From a virus, in the IMG/VR virus record IMGVR_UViG_3300042465_002266, positions 1-30,617 of that record: a DNA stretch of 30,617 bases; one strand, given 5' to 3'. Position 1 is the first letter of the stretch, and each line of letters starts with the position of its first letter. The notes beneath the pieces were generated by a model that saw nothing but the letters and a program-made list of their open reading frames with translations, was not told the origin of the DNA and made no database searches. This document shows, in pieces, positions 9,567-29,944 of this stretch. The position numbers were made by a program, and so were the translations under genes.

Positions 9567-10484
9567 ATGGCAATTGCAAACGGCGCACAGCACACCATCC
9601 ACTTTGTTCCCGAAGTTACCTACGGCACAACTCCTGCCGCACCAGCCTTCAAGCCTTTCCCGCACACTGGCACAAACTTAGCCATGACCAAAGACGGTCT
9701 TGAGTCTGAAAAACTGCGCGGTGATCGCCAGGTTGAGGACTTCCGTCACGGCAACCAGTCAATCAGCGGTGATGTAACCTCAGAGTTCGAGTACGGTGAT
9801 CTTGATGACATTTTGCAGGCCGTACTGTGCGGCACTTGGGCTGCTGACGTTTTAAAGGCAGGCGTGACCCGCAGATCGTTTACGCTTGAGCGCAAGTTTG
9901 CTGATCTTGCTACGCCAGAGTTTCACCGATACACAGGCTGCGAATTCAACACGTTTGCAATGTCTGTTAGCCCTAATGCAATCGTCACTGCAACCTTTGG
10001 CGTGATTGGTAAAGGTCTTACACTTGCAACGACTGCAATAGCCAGCAGCACATACGCTTCACCATCAGCGGTTCAACCTTTCGACAGTTTCACTGGCTCA
10101 ATTACTGAAGGCGGCTCACCGATTGCTGTTGTGACAAGCATTGAGTTTACATTGGAGAACGGTCTTGAGCCTTTGTTCGCAGTTGGCAGCAAGACAACAA
10201 ATCGGCCATCAATCGGCAAGTCTCGACTGACAGGCACGATGACAACCTACTTTGAAAGCAAGACGCTCTACGAAAAATTCATCAACGAAACATCCTCCAG
10301 CATCGTGCTGACACTTGTTGATCTTGCAGGCAATGACTATGAGTTTGACTTTCCAAACGTCAAATACAACTCAGGTCAGCCAGACGTATCAGGTGAAGGC
10401 GCAGTCACTATCAGCATGGACTTTATTGCTCTTTATGATGCGACAGACGCAAGCCAGATCGTTATAACCCGCGATCCGGTATAA
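9567..10484 (+). CDS. major tail tube protein
   Basis: The 305-aa protein should stack as hexamers to make the tail tube. The N-terminal VPEVTYGTTPAAPAFKPF followed by the GNQSISGDVTSEFEYGDLDDIL region is typical of phage tail tube proteins of the 'Phage_tube_2' type. The C-terminal half has VKYNSGQPDVSGEGAVTISMDF, a common closing strand pattern. It follows the tail terminator and precedes the assembly chaperone. The length is at the upper end for a tube protein and may include an additional surface Ig-like portion, which I cannot delimit. Confidence 0.88.
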   Translation: MAIANGAQHTIHFVPEVTYGTTPAAPAFKPFPHTGTNLAMTKDGLESEKLRGDRQVEDFRHGNQSISGDVTSEFEYGDLDDILQAVLCGTWAADVLKAGVTRRSFTLERKFADLATPEFHRYTGCEFNTFAMSVSPNAIVTATFGVIGKGLTLATTAIASSTYASPSAVQPFDSFTGSITEGGSPIAVVTSIEFTLENGLEPLFAVGSKTTNRPSIGKSRLTGTMTTYFESKTLYEKFINETSSSIVLTLVDLAGNDYEFDFPNVKYNSGQPDVSGEGAVTISMDFIALYDATDASQIVITRDPV

Positions 10485-10488
10485 CATC

Positions 10489-10872
10489 ATGGAATTGTCC
10501 AATCTGATGACTGCTGATGACCATGCGGCAGGGGCGGAGTGCAACATCTTCTCCCCTGTTGATGGAAAACTTACGGATGTTTTTATCCTTGTTGCCGGTG
10601 CTGACTCACCTGTCTGGCGTAAATCAAAGCGCAAGCAAACCACTGAGATCATGGCTGTTGCCAGATCAAAAGATACGGTTGACCTTGATTACGACAAGAT
10701 GGACATAGAGGCACTGGTTGACGCAACGCTTGGCTGGCGCGGTATCGTGAAAGATGGCGAACCGTGGGAATACAGCAAAGCAAACGCGCTTGATCTGTAC
10801 AGCAAGTCGCCTGGTATTGTTTCGCAACTGTTAGACTTTATCGCTGACAAGAGAAATTTTACCAAAGGCTGA
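10489..10872 (+). CDS. tail assembly chaperone, short form (gpG-like), 127 aa
   Basis: This soluble alpha/beta protein is thought to coat the tape measure during tail assembly. It starts four bases after the tube stop and ends in helical DKRNFTKG. Its position between tube and tape measure matches lambda gpG. Close to its stop a slippery heptamer (10854-10860) allows a -1 shift into an open frame that continues to 11192, giving a longer second form. Family identity is based on location and the frameshift layout more than on sequence. Confidence 0.8.
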   Translation: MELSNLMTADDHAAGAECNIFSPVDGKLTDVFILVAGADSPVWRKSKRKQTTEIMAVARSKDTVDLDYDKMDIEALVDATLGWRGIVKDGEPWEYSKANALDLYSKSPGIVSQLLDFIADKRNFTKG

Positions 10873-10895
10873 TTGACGAATTTGTTACCTTTGGT
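10854..10895 (+). promoter_or_regulatory. programmed -1 frameshift signal
   Basis: In the chaperone frame the heptamer A AAT TTT (10854-10860) has the X XXY YYZ form. The -1 frame has a TGA at 10845-10847 and the 0 frame ends at TGA 10870-10872, so slippage can only happen in about 25 bases, and the heptamer is in that interval. ACCAAAGG (10861-10868) pairs perfectly with CCTTTGGT (10888-10895) around a 19-base loop. The stem begins with no spacer, closer than the usual 5-9 bases, so its lower part would be open during slippage. Confidence 0.78.
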
Positions 10896-11192
10896 CGCTG
10901 GTGTTTTTACATACACGCGCACCCTGAAGGCTCATCAATCAGCCGGTACGATACGCTTAAGCAGGTCGAGAAAAGCACAGGCAAGACGCCAAAAGATTTG
11001 CAAGGCGCACCATCTGTCGGCATAGAGCATGAGGACGCGTTAAAGGCTTATAAGTCGCTGACTACGCACACATGGCAAGAGCTTGACGCTTACATGCGCT
11101 TATCTGGCAACACGCTCTCAGGCTGGGAAATAGAGGCTGTTATGACACTGGCAAAGCATAGAGACGAGGTTCCAAAATGGCCACTGAAGTAG
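10860..11192 (+). CDS. tail assembly chaperone, -1 frameshift extension (gpT-like)
   Basis: After a -1 slip at 10854-10860 translation re-enters at TAC (10860) and runs to TAG at 11190-11192, adding about 110 residues to 124 from the short form (about 234 aa in all). The extension contains LIDEFVTFGRWCFYI, a middle STGKTPKDLQGAP linker and a helical C-terminus ending DEVPKWPLK. It overlaps the tape-measure start by 16 bases. A TTG at 10998 has no supporting ribosome site, so a separate gene is less likely. The layout mirrors lambda gpGT, in which the T part binds tube subunits. Confidence 0.78.
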   Translation, partial: YQRLIDEFVTFGRWCFYIHAHPEGSSISRYDTLKQVEKSTGKTPKDLQGAPSVGIEHEDALKAYKSLTTHTWQELDAYMRLSGNTLSGWEIEAVMTLAKHRDEVPKWPLK

Positions 11193-13342
11193 TTACCCTA
11201 GTATTTGGAGCTGATACCCGCCCACTGAAAAGTGCAAATGATGAGCTTGCTAAAACAGCAGCCGCAAGTGTTCGCGCTGAAGATGCTGCAAAGAGAATGG
11301 GCACTCAGTTAAAAAACGCAGCTAATGACTCCATCAATCCGATCAAAAAAGTAACCGCAGGCATATCAGGCTTACAGTCTGCATTGATTGCCATTGCTGG
11401 CTCTGTTGTTGTTGGCCAGATTGTAAACATGGCTAATCAATTTACGGACTTAAACTCTAGATTGATTAACGCGACTGGCAGCACTGAGGCCGCTAATCAG
11501 GCGTTCAAGGCGATTACAGAAACTGCTAGAGGCACATACTCAAGCATTCAGCAAACGGCGCAAGCCTTCCTTATGAACTCAATGGCTCTTAATGAGCTTG
11601 GGTTTTCTACTAAAGAGCAAATTGATCTTGCTGACGCATTAAACAACGCTCTTGTTATTAGCGGCACAAAAGGCGATCAAGCAGCGTCAGTAATGAATGC
11701 TTTGTCAAAAGCAATGGCACTTGGCAAGCTATCCGGTGATAACTTCAACACAGTTATTCAGTCGGGCGGCAGAGTTGTTCAAGCGTTAGCTGATGGCTTG
11801 GGTGTTACGACAAGCGAGCTTAGAAGTATGGCTGCTGATGGCCTGCTGACCACTGAGGTTCTTGTAAAGTCTCTGACTGGTGAGGTCTCCACTCTGCGCC
11901 GTGAAGCAGCAGCAATGCCTGCAACTATTGCTGATGGCATGGTTCTGTTTAAAAACTCAATGTTTGGGCTGATCGGTACACTTAACGAAGTATCAGGTGT
12001 TAGCCAATCAGTCTCTGGGCTAATTGTTGGCATTGCTGACTCGGTGCAAGGCTTTACTAATCGAATCGTCACGGCAAGAGAAAGACAGCAAGAATTTAAC
12101 GAAGTGTTTCAAGAGCTGTCTACCTTAACAACAACTGGCTATGTGCCTGCACTTGATGAGGCAATCAACTACGTTAATCGTTTGATTGAGTCTAAACTTG
12201 ATCTGATTGATGTGAGTTTGCTGGAAAACAAATCAATTACACAAAACCAAGAAGTGATTGACAGAGTTAATGCTCTTTATGGTGAGGCATCAAGACAGAG
12301 GCAACGACACAATCAAGTTGTCGGTGAGCAGAACCAGTTGTCTGCAATGCTTAACGCAACACTGCGTGAAAAAGCAGGCATTGTTGAAGAAGTCACTGCC
12401 AACGAAGGCCAAAATAACAATGCAACAGAAGCATCAATCAGCCTAGCATCACAAGTGATGGCATCAATCGCTGATGAAATTTATGCGCTTAACCTAAGTA
12501 ATCGCGAGCGAGCATTACGGGCAAACTTGATCGCGCTTGGCAATGACGCAACACCGGCTGAAGTGGCGGCAATCGTTGCTGCTACAAATGCGCTTTATGA
12601 TGAGCGAGACGCACTGGCAGCTTTGAATGAAGTAAAGTCAGTGCAGGCAGGCAAGCCAGGCGGCGGGAAAATAAAAAGCTTGGCAGAAACAGAGCGCGAG
12701 CAGCAGCAAGAAAGATTTGCTGAATTGCTTTTATGGAAGCAGGCAGAAGTTCGGCTTGATAACCGCGCAAACGATGCAAGGCTAGAGCGACAAAGAGAAC
12801 AAACATCTCAGCTTCTCGCATTTGAAGATGTGTTGCTGCAAGGCAAAAACTCTGCACTCGGCGAAGCATATCGAATTGGCGTGAATTATGCTGATAAAGA
12901 AAAGCGCGAGACTGCTGCAAAGATTATCTCTGACAGCTACGCTGCGGCGATGGGAGCTTTTAAATCACTGTCAGGCATTCCATTTATTGGCCCGGCTTTG
13001 GGCGCAGCAGCAGCAGGAGGCATTCTAGCGGCTGGTGTCTCTTATTCTGCTAAGTCACTTGCTGGTCGGGCATTAGGCGGTCAGGTGCGCGGTGGCGAGT
13101 CTTATGTTGTGGGCGAGCGTGGGCCAGAAGTTCTAACAATGGGATCAACTGGTGGCAAGATTATTCCTAACTCTGCTATTTCAAATCTTCCAGCTTCAGG
13201 AATAATAAACAACACTGCCAACGTCACATTCAGCATAACCGCAAACGACACACGCGGCTTTGATGAGCTGCTGTTGAAACGGCGCGGCATGATTGCTAGT
13301 TTGGTGCAGTCATCACTTAATAACTTGGGCAGAAGCATATGA
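11177..13342 (+). CDS. tail tape measure protein
   Basis: This 721-aa protein should set tail length and take part in DNA entry; at about 0.15 nm per residue it predicts a tail of roughly 100 nm. The N-terminus has a coiled region (ANDELAKTAAASVRAEDAA), a hydrophobic segment (ALIAIAGSVVVGQIVNMAN, about 72-90), and a TP901-type core with QTAQAFLMNSMALNELG and GDNFNTVIQSGGRVVQAL. A second hydrophobic stretch (IPFIGPALGAAAAGGILAAG) precedes the typical ending GRALGGQVRGGESYVVGERG and IIPN. The start is well fixed by overlap with the chaperone extension, and it overlaps the next gene by four bases. Confidence 0.95.
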   Translation: MATEVVTLVFGADTRPLKSANDELAKTAAASVRAEDAAKRMGTQLKNAANDSINPIKKVTAGISGLQSALIAIAGSVVVGQIVNMANQFTDLNSRLINATGSTEAANQAFKAITETARGTYSSIQQTAQAFLMNSMALNELGFSTKEQIDLADALNNALVISGTKGDQAASVMNALSKAMALGKLSGDNFNTVIQSGGRVVQALADGLGVTTSELRSMAADGLLTTEVLVKSLTGEVSTLRREAAAMPATIADGMVLFKNSMFGLIGTLNEVSGVSQSVSGLIVGIADSVQGFTNRIVTARERQQEFNEVFQELSTLTTTGYVPALDEAINYVNRLIESKLDLIDVSLLENKSITQNQEVIDRVNALYGEASRQRQRHNQVVGEQNQLSAMLNATLREKAGIVEEVTANEGQNNNATEASISLASQVMASIADEIYALNLSNRERALRANLIALGNDATPAEVAAIVAATNALYDERDALAALNEVKSVQAGKPGGGKIKSLAETEREQQQERFAELLLWKQAEVRLDNRANDARLERQREQTSQLLAFEDVLLQGKNSALGEAYRIGVNYADKEKRETAAKIISDSYAAAMGAFKSLSGIPFIGPALGAAAAGGILAAGVSYSAKSLAGRALGGQVRGGESYVVGERGPEVLTMGSTGGKIIPNSAISNLPASGIINNTANVTFSITANDTRGFDELLLKRRGMIASLVQSSLNNLGRSI

Positions 13343-19438: not shown

Positions 19439-21778
19439 ATGTCTACAATCGTAACGAGGGCAGGCAAAGGCAGCCCGTTAACCAACACTGAAGTCGATTC
19501 TAATTTTACGAATCTAAACACTGACAAATTAGAAATCAACGCTGCTCTCGGCACTCCGGCATCTGTCACGCTAACCAATGCAACTGGCTTGCCAACCGCT
19601 GGTTTAGTTGATAACGCGGTTACTGATGCAAAGCTGCGAGATTCTGGCGCACTGTCAGTAATCGGCCGCTCTGCTAACTCAACGGGCAATCCTGCTGACA
19701 TCTCTGCTGGCGCTAACCATCAAGTACTACGCAGAGACGGCTCATCACTCGGTTTCGGGGCAGTCGATCTCAGTAGTAATCAGGCGGTCACTGGTACGCT
19801 ACCTGTCAATCAGGGCGGCACAGGCATAACGTCTTTCGGCTCTGGTGTAGCTACATGGCTCGGCACACCAACATCGGCTAACCTCGCTGCTGCTGTAACA
19901 AATGAGACTGGCTCCGGCGCATTAGTATTTGCCACATCACCAACTTTAGTTACTCCACTCTTGGGCACTCCAACAAGTGGCGTATTAACCAACGCTACCG
20001 GCCTACCTCTGACCACAGGCGTGACAGGCACTCTCCCAGTTGCTAATGGCGGTACGGGTCTAACAAGCTACACAGCAGGCAGTGTTGTGTACTCAGAAGA
20101 CGGAACCAGCCTAACAAGCGGCATCAAGTTTGGCACAGCACCACAAGATATTGTTCTGAACCAATTCTTAAGCGGTATGGCCTACCAAGACCCTAACAAC
20201 GTCACCATCGGCGGCGGTAGTGCAACACTGACCAGCCTGACGGCGACCACGGTGACTGGTACGTCAATGGTCTACAACGGCGCAGAGCTGAACTCTCGGC
20301 TCAATCCACTTGCTCAGGCTGTGTCGGTGCAGATGACGGCTGCAACAAGTGGTAGTAACGGCATCCAGCAGCTTGATAACGCCAATCTTGATATGGGGAC
20401 AAATAATTTTACCCTGCATTGGGAAGGGTCGCTGCCGGATTGGACGCCTGTGGCTGTTAGCAGAGTGATCCATAAGCGGCAATCAGCGTCGGTTAGGTGG
20501 TCTTTTGCTGTAAATACAGACGGGACGCTTTCAGCATTTGCAACTGATGGCGGCACTATATTCAGCACTACAAGCACATCTGCTGCATCAATAGCAGCAA
20601 ATGAAGTAGCCAAGATTACTGCGGTTATTGTCCGAGAGTCTGCCCTAGTTGCGGGAAGCGTGGCCTTTTACGTGAACGGCACTGCGCTTGGCGCTTCTGT
20701 TGCAATCACTGCGGCAACGACTGCCTCAATAAATAACACTGGGGCTTTGAGCATTTGCGCGGCAAATTCTACGGCAGACGGGCGAATAGAATCAACCACC
20801 CGCGCCTGCTACTTATTCAACCGCGCCCTAACCTCAGCAGAAGTCCTTGACCTTAGCATCAACGGAGTTGCGCTGGCTGATCGGGGGGCGAGTCAGTTAA
20901 CGCCAATAAGTGGAAATGCACAAAACGGAACGTCAACACGCGCTTTATCATCTTTTGTGGGGACTACAACGGGTTTTAGCGGATCAGCGTCATCATCAAC
21001 AGGTACTGCAAGGCAAGGTGGGTGGACGCTGAATGCTCAAACTGGAAAACGCTACAGAGTGAAGTTATCATATGTTGCTAACGCTACAGCAGGTGGCACT
21101 CTTGAGTTGTCGGCTAGAATATCCACATCTACAAGTGATTTAACGGCTCTATCAAACGTAGAGACCGTAAGCGGCACAACCACGATGACAGGCACTTTGA
21201 CCACAGAGCTTGTGGCTACGTCAACCGGAGCTTTTTTTGCCGCTGTAACAATACGCAGCCCTTCGGCGGCCGCATCTATTGATATAACCGTTACGGATTA
21301 TTCGATTATTCAAGTGGGCATCACCTCCGAACTCCTAGCCAGCAACGCTCAATCCGACACCGGCCAAATCTTTGACACAAGCGGCAACAAGAATCACGCG
21401 CTGCTGCCTGCATCCGGCGCAACAGTCGTTGGTCGCCCTGTATCGCAAACCCGAGAAGTACGCTGGACTAACACATGGGCTGGGACAAATGAATTGCAAT
21501 ACATAGGCGGTGTCAATCAAGCAATCTTGCCTGCTAATGCCTACATCGAATCAATCGTAGGCACAGTAAGTGGCGCGACACCACATGACATTATTGTCGG
21601 TGACGGCTCAGACGCTGACCGCTACGTGACGATTACAACGGGGCTGGCTGCTGGGACAACGACATTCACGCTGGCTAACCGGACGACAGACGGCACGAAC
21701 CTTAAACTTACGGTCGATCCCGATACTGACTGCTCGATGTCAATCGCGTGGGTTATTACCTACTACACTATGGAGTAA
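19439..21778 (+). CDS. tail fibre with ConA/LamG-like domain
   Basis: The 779-aa protein starts [20 protein letters not shown], a familiar fibre N-terminus ('[11 protein letters not shown].EvD.NFtnLN'). Residues about 38-215 are repeats such as [15 protein letters not shown] and [16 protein letters not shown], common in phage fibre shafts. Residues about 285-470 look like a concanavalin/LamG lectin domain ([43 protein letters not shown]). The remaining beta region (about 490-779) may hold a further carbohydrate-binding module. It is a likely receptor-binding fibre acting outside the cell. Confidence 0.85.
19547..20075 (+). repeat. degenerate coding repeats in fibre shaft
   Basis: Two kinds of units recur: GGCACTCC-led units encoding '[16 protein letters not shown]' (starting near 19547 and 19960, with a related unit near 19860) and units encoding 'TGTLPVxxGGTGxTSxxxG' (near 19792 and 20026). 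They are diverged at DNA level, so they are protein-level repeats and not recent duplications. Such blocks are common recombination points for fibre exchange. Confidence 0.6.
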
Positions 21779-21781
21779 ATC

Positions 21782-23482
21782 ATGGCTAACAACTTCCCAA
21801 ATTTGCTTCCGAGTCTAAATCTCGATCTAGTCAACGGCATCTATGTCGATCCCAGAATTACATTTACGAGGGCGGGGACACGCACATACTACGGCAGGGA
21901 TGTGGTTAAAGCTGAGGAGAATTTGCTGCTGCAAAGTCAGACGTTTAATACTGCAAGTTGGACGAAGGGAGCAAGCGTAACGCTAACAACCGATGCGGCA
22001 GTTGCGCCGGATGGCACATCAACTGCGGAAATGTTTAGCACCGCTCTAGGCAGTGATTCATCAGCGCAGCAAATCTCCCAAGTTACAACATCTGGCACTG
22101 GCGTGTTCACCGTAAGCATTTTTCTAAGATCGGCATCAAGTCAAACAGTTCGATTAAAATTGTTCGAAAACAACGGTGTAACGCTTATCGCCAACGAAGA
22201 TGTGTCTGTGACTTCGACATGGACAAGGTTTGCTTTTACAGTCACTGTCACTACAGCAAACTTTACATTAGGTATACGGCCATCAGGCACGGCACTTACA
22301 GACATTGAAATATGGGGCGCTCAACTAGAACAACGCAGTTCAGCCACAGCCTACACAGCCACCACCACCCAGACCATCACAAACTACCAGCGACAACTTA
22401 AAACCGCTGCTGCAAACGAATGGCCGCGTGAGTTTGACCCTGTGACGGGGGAGTGTTTGGGGAGGAGTGTTTGGGAGAGTAGGACTAATTTGTCCTTAAG
22501 GTCTGAGGAGTTTGATAATGCGTATTGGACAAAAGTCGGCGCAACAGTAAGTGCAAATCAGGTAATAGCGCCTGACGGCACGTTGTCGATGGATAAGTTG
22601 GTTGAAGATACTGCTAACAGCGGTCACAGCGTACAAGGTACGGGGGTATCCGTCACTTCAGGGATTGTATATACATTTACTATTTACGCAAAAGCTGCGG
22701 AGCGTTCTTTTATACGGATAAATGGAAACACCACAGGGCTGGTCGGTGCGGCCTACTATAATTTAAGCACTGGCGCGCTGGGTACGGTTGCGGCAGGAAC
22801 AACGGCATCTATTGTCAATGTTGGAAATGGCATTTACCGCTGTGTTTTTACTCGCACTGCTACCGCAACAAGCAGCGTTAGTTTTTTGGTTTCCGTCACA
22901 AACGCAGACAATGTGTCAAGCTATCTTGGAGACGGCTACTCAGGCATCTACATCTGGGGCGCACAACTAGAAGCCGGAGCATTTGCAACACCCTACATCC
23001 CCACAGTAGCCGCACAAGTCACCCGTCTTGCTGACAGTGCTGTGATGACGGGGACTAACTTTAGTAGTTGGTTTAATCCTAGTGAGGGGACGTTTGTAGT
23101 CAACTCAACTGGGCTTGATACATCGTTTACAGTTGCGGTTCAAGTGGATGACGGGACAACAAGCAACAGGATAGGTATGATAATTCCAAGGGCAAGCTCT
23201 GCCTCGCCAGCATTTATTTTTACGAGTGGCGCAGCTCAAACGGCTTTCTCAAACGTCACCTTTGTTGGTGATGATAAAGAAGCGTTATCTTACGCTGCAA
23301 ATAACGTGTTGTTGTCTGTAAACGGTGCGGCTGTTCAGACAGATACGACCGTAGTGCTGCCTGTAGTTGACCGATTAAGAATTAGAAATAACTCAGCGGC
23401 TCCTTCATCCGGCTACATCAAACGCATAACCTACTACCCACAAGCCCTGACAGCGGCCAACTTACAGGCGGTGACGCGATGA
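21782..23482 (+). CDS. tail adhesin with two carbohydrate-binding-like modules, 566 aa
   Basis: It starts three bases after the previous stop. The N-terminus (FPNLLPSLNLDLVNG, DPRITFTRAGTRTYYG) belongs to a phage structural family. Two similar beta modules follow: about 47-190 (ENLLLQSQTFNTASW ... IWGAQLEQRSSATAYTATTT) and about 235-410 (TNLSLRSEEFDNAYW ... IWGAQLEAGAFATPYIPTVA). The signature 'W.k......apDGt ... IWGAQLE ... YipT' is typical of CBM-like modules in phage adhesins. The C-terminal 150 residues form another beta domain. The first module appears to be inserted within a motif that is normally continuous. It probably binds host surface glycans. Confidence 0.82.
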   Translation: MANNFPNLLPSLNLDLVNGIYVDPRITFTRAGTRTYYGRDVVKAEENLLLQSQTFNTASWTKGASVTLTTDAAVAPDGTSTAEMFSTALGSDSSAQQISQVTTSGTGVFTVSIFLRSASSQTVRLKLFENNGVTLIANEDVSVTSTWTRFAFTVTVTTANFTLGIRPSGTALTDIEIWGAQLEQRSSATAYTATTTQTITNYQRQLKTAAANEWPREFDPVTGECLGRSVWESRTNLSLRSEEFDNAYWTKVGATVSANQVIAPDGTLSMDKLVEDTANSGHSVQGTGVSVTSGIVYTFTIYAKAAERSFIRINGNTTGLVGAAYYNLSTGALGTVAAGTTASIVNVGNGIYRCVFTRTATATSSVSFLVSVTNADNVSSYLGDGYSGIYIWGAQLEAGAFATPYIPTVAAQVTRLADSAVMTGTNFSSWFNPSEGTFVVNSTGLDTSFTVAVQVDDGTTSNRIGMIIPRASSASPAFIFTSGAAQTAFSNVTFVGDDKEALSYAANNVLLSVNGAAVQTDTTVVLPVVDRLRIRNNSAAPSSGYIKRITYYPQALTAANLQAVTR

Positions 23483-28366: not shown

Positions 28367-28702
28367 CTAAAATGGCAAGTCGCCGGAGTCATCAAAATCG
28401 TCATAAGCTGGAGCTGGCTGCGGTGCTTGCCTGCCGTGATTGCTGTGCTGTTTTGCGCTTGGCTGCTGCTGCTGATCTTTCCAAAACACTTTACAGTTAC
28501 CGAGGATTGCTCCATTCTTGCCAGCGTCACGGTTCTCCTTTGTCTCATCCTGAGTGATCATGCCGTGGTTTCCGTACTGATCAGCCTGGTCTATGTCCAC
28601 AAAAACGGTAGCAGACAGGTAAACGCCTTTAGCTCCTTTGTACAACAAAGCCTTGTCGATCTTTGATACATCAATGGATAATTTAACGCCTACTTTGCTC
28701 AT
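28367..28702 (-). CDS. single-stranded DNA-binding protein-like, 111 aa
   Basis: The N-terminal 80 residues are beta-rich (VGVKLSIDVSKIDKALLYKG, YLSATVFVDIDQADQYGN, GAILGNCKVFWKD), fitting an OB-fold. A Gln/Pro-rich linker follows, and then an acidic tip DDFDDSGDLPF that mimics the SSB C-terminal protein-docking tail. It overlaps YqaJ by ATGA and follows the annealing protein, so it probably protects and hands over ssDNA during recombination. It is shorter than host SSB and forms its own phage group. Confidence 0.78.
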   Translation of the reverse strand: MSKVGVKLSIDVSKIDKALLYKGAKGVYLSATVFVDIDQADQYGNHGMITQDETKENRDAGKNGAILGNCKVFWKDQQQQPSAKQHSNHGRQAPQPAPAYDDFDDSGDLPF

Positions 28703-29283
28703 ATCAATCTCTCATAATTAACGGTTGGTAAAATTGGTTTCTTTCGTTTTGCAGGCTCTTGGTCTGACTTCCAAAAACTGTAGAAGTCTGACAACAGCGC
28801 AAGGCATTGCTGCCAATATTCTTTATCAAACGGCACTTCCCATACTTCAAAGCCTTCTGGTGTCCAGCAAACAAAGTGCGACAACTTGCGCCCAGTTATG
28901 AAAAGCTGTCCCTGCACTTGCGGCATGTAAACATCAGGAACCTTTCCGTATAAGTTCATGCTGGCTGGGCATTTGGCCTCGATAACGATGTCACTGCCGA
29001 CAAAGCCATCAGGAGTGCATCCCAGCCAGTCATGGCTCGCAGATATAACGAAACCCTGCTTACCACCAGCACTTTGCACGATGTCGCCTGTATGCACCTC
29101 GTAGGCGGTTATAGCGTGATGCTCGTTTGCTGATCCCCACTCGGTTGCAGCATTTCCTTCAAAGCGAGGCTCGCGGCCTGTGAGCTGCCGCCAGAGCTTT
29201 TGTCTGGAGTCATAGCCTATGCCTATGGCTGACGCAAACACGCTTGCAGTCAGCCTGCCTTCTCTATCAGGTGACAGGCTCAT
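28699..29283 (-). CDS. YqaJ-type recombination exonuclease, 194 aa
   Basis: This lambda-Exo-like 5'-3' exonuclease should resect DNA ends. It begins with the usual SPDREGRLTAS, then WGSANE (E54), GCTPDG (D92), IEAKCP (E102, K104) and YMPQVQGQLFITG (Q122, Q126), the PD-(D/E)XK core with all catalytic residues. Length is normal for the family. It is flanked by an annealing protein (ATGA overlap upstream) and an SSB-like gene (ATGA overlap downstream), making a complete exonuclease-annealase pair. Confidence 0.92.
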   Translation of the reverse strand: MSLSPDREGRLTASVFASAIGIGYDSRQKLWRQLTGREPRFEGNAATEWGSANEHHAITAYEVHTGDIVQSAGGKQGFVISASHDWLGCTPDGFVGSDIVIEAKCPASMNLYGKVPDVYMPQVQGQLFITGRKLSHFVCWTPEGFEVWEVPFDKEYWQQCLALLSDFYSFWKSDQEPAKRKKPILPTVNYERLI

Positions 29284-29807
29284 GCTAGACGCTCTTTGAC
29301 TTCTGCCAGCACATCGCCGTGGGCTTCACGCTGGTCAGGTGTCATTGACTTCCAAGCGGCTCTCAGCTCATCAATGTTGGTGCAGGCATGTAGCATCTGG
29401 CTAAGGATTGGATCAGGCTTGCGGTCAGGCTTGTGAGCCTGTGGGACATCTTCACCAGCGTAGATATAATGTGCGAGACCAAACAAAGCCAAGCACTTAA
29501 CCAGGCATCGCATCATTGCCGTATTAACAGCAAAACTGTCGGGGTTTGGAATAGCCTTGTTCTTATAGTCCATCACTGGCAACCACATCTTGCGGCTGCA
29601 CTCTTGAATGCTGACAGTGCAGAACACCATCATCGTGCCGTCAGCCATAACCTTTGGCTCGTCAAACTCAAACGTGGCTTCTGGGTAATGCTCCATCAGC
29701 GTTGACCAAGCCCATGCCCAGCTTAGGTAGGTCAAGTTGGCTTTCTTTTCAACGTGATCAGAACAATCAATGCTGCTAAGGGTCTGCCAGATTTCTTTGT
29801 GTATCAT
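29280..29807 (-). CDS. single-strand annealing protein (DUF1071 / Sak3-like), 175 aa
   Basis: ATG at 29807 has GAGG upstream and is preferred over one at 29843. The hallmark KKANLTYLSWAWAWSTLMEHYP (residues about 21-42, cited in part) and AVNTAMMRCLVKCLALFGLAHYIYAG identify the DUF1071 group of Rad52-like annealing proteins. It likely anneals complementary ssDNA exposed by the YqaJ exonuclease. The C-terminal 40 residues are a helical tail (CTNIDELRAAWKSMT). It is the first gene of the leftward operon, next to the control region. Confidence 0.88.
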   Translation of the reverse strand: MIHKEIWQTLSSIDCSDHVEKKANLTYLSWAWAWSTLMEHYPEATFEFDEPKVMADGTMMVFCTVSIQECSRKMWLPVMDYKNKAIPNPDSFAVNTAMMRCLVKCLALFGLAHYIYAGEDVPQAHKPDRKPDPILSQMLHACTNIDELRAAWKSMTPDQREAHGDVLAEVKERLA

Positions 29808-29944
29808 TGTTATATCCTCTTTTTGGTTTGTGTGTTCGCACATTTAAGCACTTATGGTGCGCCCAAGCAAGCACAAATAGAGTTTACTTTGCAAAAATAG
29901 TGTGCTTACAATAGCGCATCAACAACAAGATTGAGGGTTAAACA
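29808..29944. promoter_or_regulatory. divergent control region with AAGCAC repeats
   Basis: This 137-base gap separates the leftward early operon from a rightward gene. A rightward promoter may be TTTACT (29883-29888), 18-base spacer, TACAAT (29907-29912). AAGCACA (29869-29875) and TGTGCTT (29901-29907) flank its -35 as an inverted pair, and TAAGCACTTA (29845-29854) is a third site with TAAG/CTTA symmetry. A leftward promoter is not clear; the best match is weak. The layout is what a repressor/activator switch would use. Confidence 0.6.

Follow-up and report, generated by a model that had tools for sequence, protein, structure and literature searches.

Frameshift signals in phage tail genes and in bacteria

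The closest described system to the locus reported here is the G/GT frameshift of phage lambda, which was reportedly studied by Levin in 1993 and by Xu, Hendrix and Duda in 2004 and 2013. The roles of G and GT in the assembly of the lambda tail have been described (PMC5009743). For bacterial signals, a survey gives rules according to which the hairpin begins 4-10 nt past the motif, opens with a G-C pair followed by at least three pairs, is 17-140 nt long and has a dG of at least 7.6 kcal/mol (PMC4066793). In E. coli measurements, H_HH.U_UU.Y heptamers, including A_AAU_UUU, are among the most shift-prone, and T_TTY tetramers shift when accompanied by a stimulator (PMC4066793). That survey considered hairpins to be of possible relevance in one phage cluster only; comparative hairpin evidence of the kind described below is uncommon for phage G/GT signals.

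The locus is, in all likelihood, a -1 programmed ribosomal frameshift signal of the lambda G/GT type in a tail assembly chaperone gene, comprised of a slippery heptamer, a 6-nt spacer and a stimulatory hairpin. It is a known kind of signal and, as far as sequence can tell, it has the features of both the lambda-type G/GT arrangement and the bacterial heptamer-plus-hairpin element. According to the comparative evidence, the hairpin of this tail-chaperone frameshift, found in a group of uncultivated phages, covaries, is under selection and has the classical spacing.

Organization of the locus

The window, which is the whole stretch of 30,617 nt that was analysed, contains a module of phage structural genes: terminase, head genes, tail terminator, tube protein, chaperone and tape measure. 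All features of the frameshift locus are on the + strand. The upstream neighbour of G is the gene of the tail tube (major tail) protein at 9567-10484 (Pfam PF18906 Phage_tube_2, E 9e-58; phrog_290). Gene G is an open reading frame at 10489-10872, the 0-frame product of which, a tail assembly chaperone of 127 residues, matches phrog_313 (E 2.9e-14). The T part, an extension of 110 residues past the slip site in the -1 frame, occupies 10860-11192 and is kept in the homologues; its match to PF23812 (Phage_TAC_18, Phage tail assembly chaperone; E 6e-8) exceeds the curated cut-off of that family. The downstream neighbour is the tape measure gene at 11177-13342 (Pfam PF20155 TMP_3, E 8e-48), whose ATG (11177) overlaps the end of T by 16 nt. 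Two overlapping reading frames are therefore found between the tube gene and the tape-measure gene, the second of them in the -1 frame, with homology to the T domain and without a start of its own near the junction.

The final -1-frame stop ahead of the slip site is the TGA at 10845-10847, beyond which this frame is open until the stop at 11190-11192; the 0-frame stop of G is the TGA at 10870-10872. The first-pass annotation had placed the heptamer A AAT TTT inside the sole 25-nt interval that these two stops (10845-10847 and 10870-10872) leave for a -1 shift, with correct coordinates. It had also described the -1 frame as open up to the tape measure start, which was confirmed, the terminating codon being located past the ATG.

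Elsewhere in the window, Pfam gave no match at E 0.001 for two big open reading frames of 779 and 566 residues that follow the tail genes (19439-23482). Genes of a YqaJ-like recombinase nuclease and a Sak single-strand annealing protein are adjacent to each other at 28699-29843 on the - strand, opposite to that of the structural genes.

Homologues and the slip site

Scans of IMG/VR, for which G, T and alignments of T served as queries, yielded 91 distinct junctions. These are represented by 52 sequences with mutual nucleotide identity below 90%. The alignment and the column-shuffle tests of the stems were made with 41 representatives, the folding scores were computed for 51 sequences, and the position of the stop was compared in 72 distinct homologues. 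No relative was found when prokaryote genomes were searched with the T alignment.

The heptamer A AAT TTT that forms the slip site occupies 10854-10860; AAT (10855-10857) is the P-site codon and TTT (10858-10860) the A-site codon. It is kept in the 52 representatives, and all 91 junctions have a slip site at the same G/T position. Chaperone homologues devoid of the heptamer or of an open -1 frame, proposed beforehand as the observation that would speak against a frameshift, did not emerge: the slip site is present in 52 of 52. The heptamer is AAATTTT in 35 representatives, GGGTTTT in three and AAATTTC in one, making it a perfect X_XXY_YYZ in 39/52. The first triplet is imperfect in the other 13 (CAATTTT in five, GAATTTT in five, GGTTTTT in two and TAATTTT in one), while T_TTY is present in every one of the 52.

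The codons of the slip site are strongly biased. Asn is encoded there by AAT in 47 of 47 cases (background 56%), Phe by TTT in 51 of 52 (background 54%), and A precedes AAT in 36 of 47 where 16 are expected, all of these counts taking the representatives as independent. By this measure, the conservation of the heptamer exceeds chance. A literature search for the A_AAT_TTT heptamer together with tail assembly returned nothing.

Imperfect first triplets next to a constant T_TTT are found in separate lineages: CAATTTT in L027, L045, L055 and L110, GAATTTT in L026, L084 and L010, TAATTTT in L111, and GGTTTTT in L019 and L079. Dual-tRNA slippage would be imperfect in the 13 representatives that lack a perfect X_XXY, and re-pairing of the A-site tRNA on T_TTT would have to bear more of the load. 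The constancy of T_TTT beside an imperfect X_XXY hints that slippage may take place mainly via the A-site tRNA.

The conserved hairpin

The heptamer is followed by a spacer of 6 nt (10861-10866), which has the identical length in 52/52 representatives, and then by a hairpin of 78 nt (10867-10944). The hairpin has a 10-bp stem, formed by the 5' arm GGCTGATTGA (10867-10876) and the 3' arm TCAATCAGCC (10935-10944), and an interior of 58 nt (10877-10934) delineated by constrained folds of the 52 representatives; in a constrained fold its dG is about -28.5. Both arms were identified by RNAalifold, by covariation counts and by the all-pairs scan, and the 3' arm also by the amino-acid-preserving permutation described below. 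The inner helix has the same register in most of the 52 folds, and the apical part is variable and not conserved. The first pair is G-C in 41 of 41 alignment rows. Spacer, first pair, stem length and energy are thus of the kind seen in bacterial stimulatory hairpins.

RNAalifold reported the 10867-10876/10935-10944 stem and nothing else. When all positions between -46 and +260 were scanned against one another, without bias, for covarying helices, the same stem came first, and within that range neither a second covarying helix nor a pseudoknot extension had strong support. Folding energies along G and T were also compared with those of synonymous-codon shuffles, in windows that were all 80 nt long. 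The excess of folding peaks at the window start 10866-10867, with a mean z of -3.62 (sem 0.2, 51 sequences, about 80% of them below -2). Elsewhere in G and T z is about -1 or weaker, save for windows a few bases from the peak, so the structure stands above its local background as well as being conserved in more than the half of homologues that is expected for such a signal. A Shine-Dalgarno-like stimulator upstream of the slip site, an optional feature of such signals, was found in 0/52 representatives. No known element in Rfam matches the signal.

Covariation of the stem

The pair 10871/10940 is the clearest example of covariation. Among 41 sequences it is G-C in 25, A-U in 14 and G-U in two, with no mismatches; both positions are synonymous third positions (Leu versus Ile/Val wobble), and the changes are compensatory. 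In the ten-pair stem as a whole, 84.1% of the cells are paired compared with 79.6% after shuffling, and pairing falls to 53% or less on sliding by 1-3 columns. Double changes occur in 34 cells, against 13.8 in the shuffles. A further permutation preserves the amino acids by swapping the codons of the 3' arm only among sequences that share the amino acid in question. The eight basal pairs are formed in 405/416 cells, compared with 384.5 +/- 2.6 in the permuted sets, and none of 2000 permutations reached the observed value. Codon choice in the arms is also constrained: Leu4 is CTG or CTA in 52/52 (background 33%) and Ser28 is AGC or AGT in 52/52 (background 32%).

To take kinship into account, independent contrasts were computed on a tree from which the hairpin columns had been left out. 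The three informative pairs gave 4.7, 5.2 and 1.0 agreeing contrasts (about 11) and 0 opposing ones, with median p values of 0.06, 0.06 and 1, no single pair clearly passing 0.05. In these sequences, the kinship-corrected agreement runs one way only, and each pair on its own is at best of borderline significance.

The stop codon inside the 5' arm

The 0-frame stop is 9 nt past the heptamer, within the 5' arm of the hairpin, and is found at this place in 69 of 72 distinct junctions. The preceding Leu codon is CTA where the next codon starts with G, which creates TAG, and CTG or CTA where the next codon starts with A. This fit of the CTA/CTG choice to the next codon indicates that the near stop is probably also under selection. 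Retention of the stop could not account for the way in which the distant 3' arm has changed in step. Moreover, L003, L004 and L018, which belong to the clade nearest to the window, have lost the stop and would extend gpG by 35-39 out-of-frame residues, and the hairpin is kept in all three, so that stop retention does not explain the stem.

As the stop is inside the 5' arm, terminating ribosomes would have to open the hairpin that makes others slip, and this makes a coupling conceivable in which termination, recycling and refolding of the hairpin would set the G:GT ratio by ribosome traffic and not by the slip site alone. Such a coupling is unlikely. The three stop-less loci that keep the hairpin are a sign that it is at least not indispensable. 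The natural variants of this family, with their imperfect heptamers and lost stops, are suited to testing the role of each part.

Alternative explanations

Another stem was considered initially. In the window, ACCAAAGG (10861-10868) and CCTTTGGT (10888-10895) on the + strand are perfectly complementary over 8 bp, with a loop of 19 nt, and the first-pass annotation had noted that, as this stem abuts the heptamer, the mechanism might differ from that of lambda; as a stimulator, the stem would have to act by close contact. The inverted repeat is real and, in the window sequence alone, mildly or marginally unusual, as a stem of at least 8 bp within 60 nt occurs in 1.7-2.6% of codon-shuffled versions. 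In the comparison across homologous phages that had been suggested, however, only the heptamer turned out to be conserved. The abutting stem is fully paired in 1/41 representatives, solely in the window's own group, and 57.6% of its cells are paired in the 41 homologues versus 57.7% in shuffled columns, with no covariation. It is also weaker than the conserved hairpin (dG -10.9 versus -28.5) and incompatible with it, the two being mutually exclusive. During the decoding of the slip codons, when TTT is in the A site, positions +7 to +14, which make up its 5' arm, would be inside the mRNA channel of the ribosome and already melted. A stimulatory role of the abutting stem is hence very improbable, and the best explanation of the repeat is that it arises incidentally from the YQR and TFG codons. 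With a conserved, covarying hairpin at the classical 6-nt spacing, nothing calls for a signal unlike those known from bacteria, and the suggestion of a mechanism unlike that of lambda G/GT was not borne out. The nearest perfect stem in a single sequence can mislead.

The remaining alternatives concern the need for a stimulator and the origin of the fusion. The heptamer alone might drive the frameshift, the hairpin being retained for another purpose such as mRNA stability; A_AA.U_UU.Y heptamers do shift well in E. coli (PMC4066793), and bacterial signals do not always show a stimulator. This is improbable: the hairpin is exactly 6 nt from the heptamer in all representatives, no other place in G or T is strongly structured, and the hairpin is retained even at loci with an imperfect heptamer. 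T could instead be a separate gene with its own start, as annotated in some database records, which list two distinct open reading frames here. This is highly improbable, given that in the window no ATG, GTG or TTG occurs among the 46 -1-frame codons that follow the slip site, that 51 of 52 representatives have no -1-frame start codon upstream of the slip site, and that protein conservation of T starts at the first codon past the slip site. Transcriptional slippage, to which an A/T-rich site might lend itself, would also yield a fusion, but the AAATTTT run is too short for polymerase slippage, judging from general experience, and it is broken in homologues with CAATTTT or GGGTTTT. A conserved RNA hairpin at 6 nt, moreover, suits the ribosome, and slippage of the polymerase is extremely improbable.

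Proposed mechanism

A -1 frameshift joining chaperone G to T, as put forward in the first-pass annotation, is well supported by the PF23812 match and by the slip site in 52 homologues. According to the mechanism proposed here, the majority of ribosomes would read A AAT TTT ACC AAA GGC TGA and terminate to produce gpG of 127 residues. Some ribosomes would meet the 78-nt hairpin while AAT occupies the P site and TTT the A site, and would pause at its foot. Counted from the first base of the P site, the foot of the hairpin would then be at about +13, at the point of mRNA entry to the ribosome, which is the expected place of a stimulator. After slipping back by one base, to AAA TTT, the paused ribosomes would continue with ...NF-YQRLIDEF..., and the product would be a GT fusion of about 234 residues. 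If lambda is a guide, the G part would bind to the tape measure protein, the tube protein would be recruited by T, and the G:GT ratio would matter for the assembly of the tail. We infer the occurrence of slippage, its stimulation by the hairpin, its efficiency and the roles of the proteins from these comparisons.

Comparison with known systems

The locus shares with lambda G/GT the gene order tube - G - T - tape measure, the -1 direction of the shift, a heptamer near the end of G, and a T frame running to the start of the tape measure gene. The heptamers differ, being A_AAT_TTT in the window and G_GGA_AAG in lambda. The hairpin of the window has comparative support, whereas that of lambda is predicted from one sequence only. 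In the lambda sequence (L203, 9600-10700; heptamer at locus position 510), this predicted hairpin of 71 nt starts 7 nt after GGGAAAG and has a dG of -34.8, with a codon-shuffle z of about -2.3 for that single sequence.

With the signals of the IS3 family the locus has in common an X_XXZ_ZZN heptamer and a hairpin whose start, G-C pair and size are within the published rules and whose dG far exceeds the limit of 7.6 kcal/mol (PMC4066793). It differs from them in its host gene, a phage tail chaperone, and in the upstream Shine-Dalgarno-like element, which none of the representatives has.

Acinetobacter phage DMU1, a related phage, has been deposited with a joined gpGT. DMU1 and related Pseudomonas and Vibrio phages have the same T family and a slip site at the equivalent position, and several of them have a predicted hairpin 5-6 nt past the heptamer, as in the window. 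The heptamer of these distant relatives, in contrast, is mostly T_TTT_TTC, their 0-frame stop is 18-102 nt downstream compared with 9 nt in the window, and their helices are different. In Pamexvirus and Bradleyvirinae (L120, L204 and L208; heptamers at locus positions 1186, 1186 and 3703) a common hairpin of 49 nt, GGGTCGAGC...GCTCGACC, follows T_TTT_TTC after a 6-nt spacer, with codon-shuffle z values of about -3.5 to -4.8; these three records do not annotate it as a frameshift. The occurrence of a different hairpin at the same spacing suggests that hairpins are widespread across this chaperone family but evolve separately.
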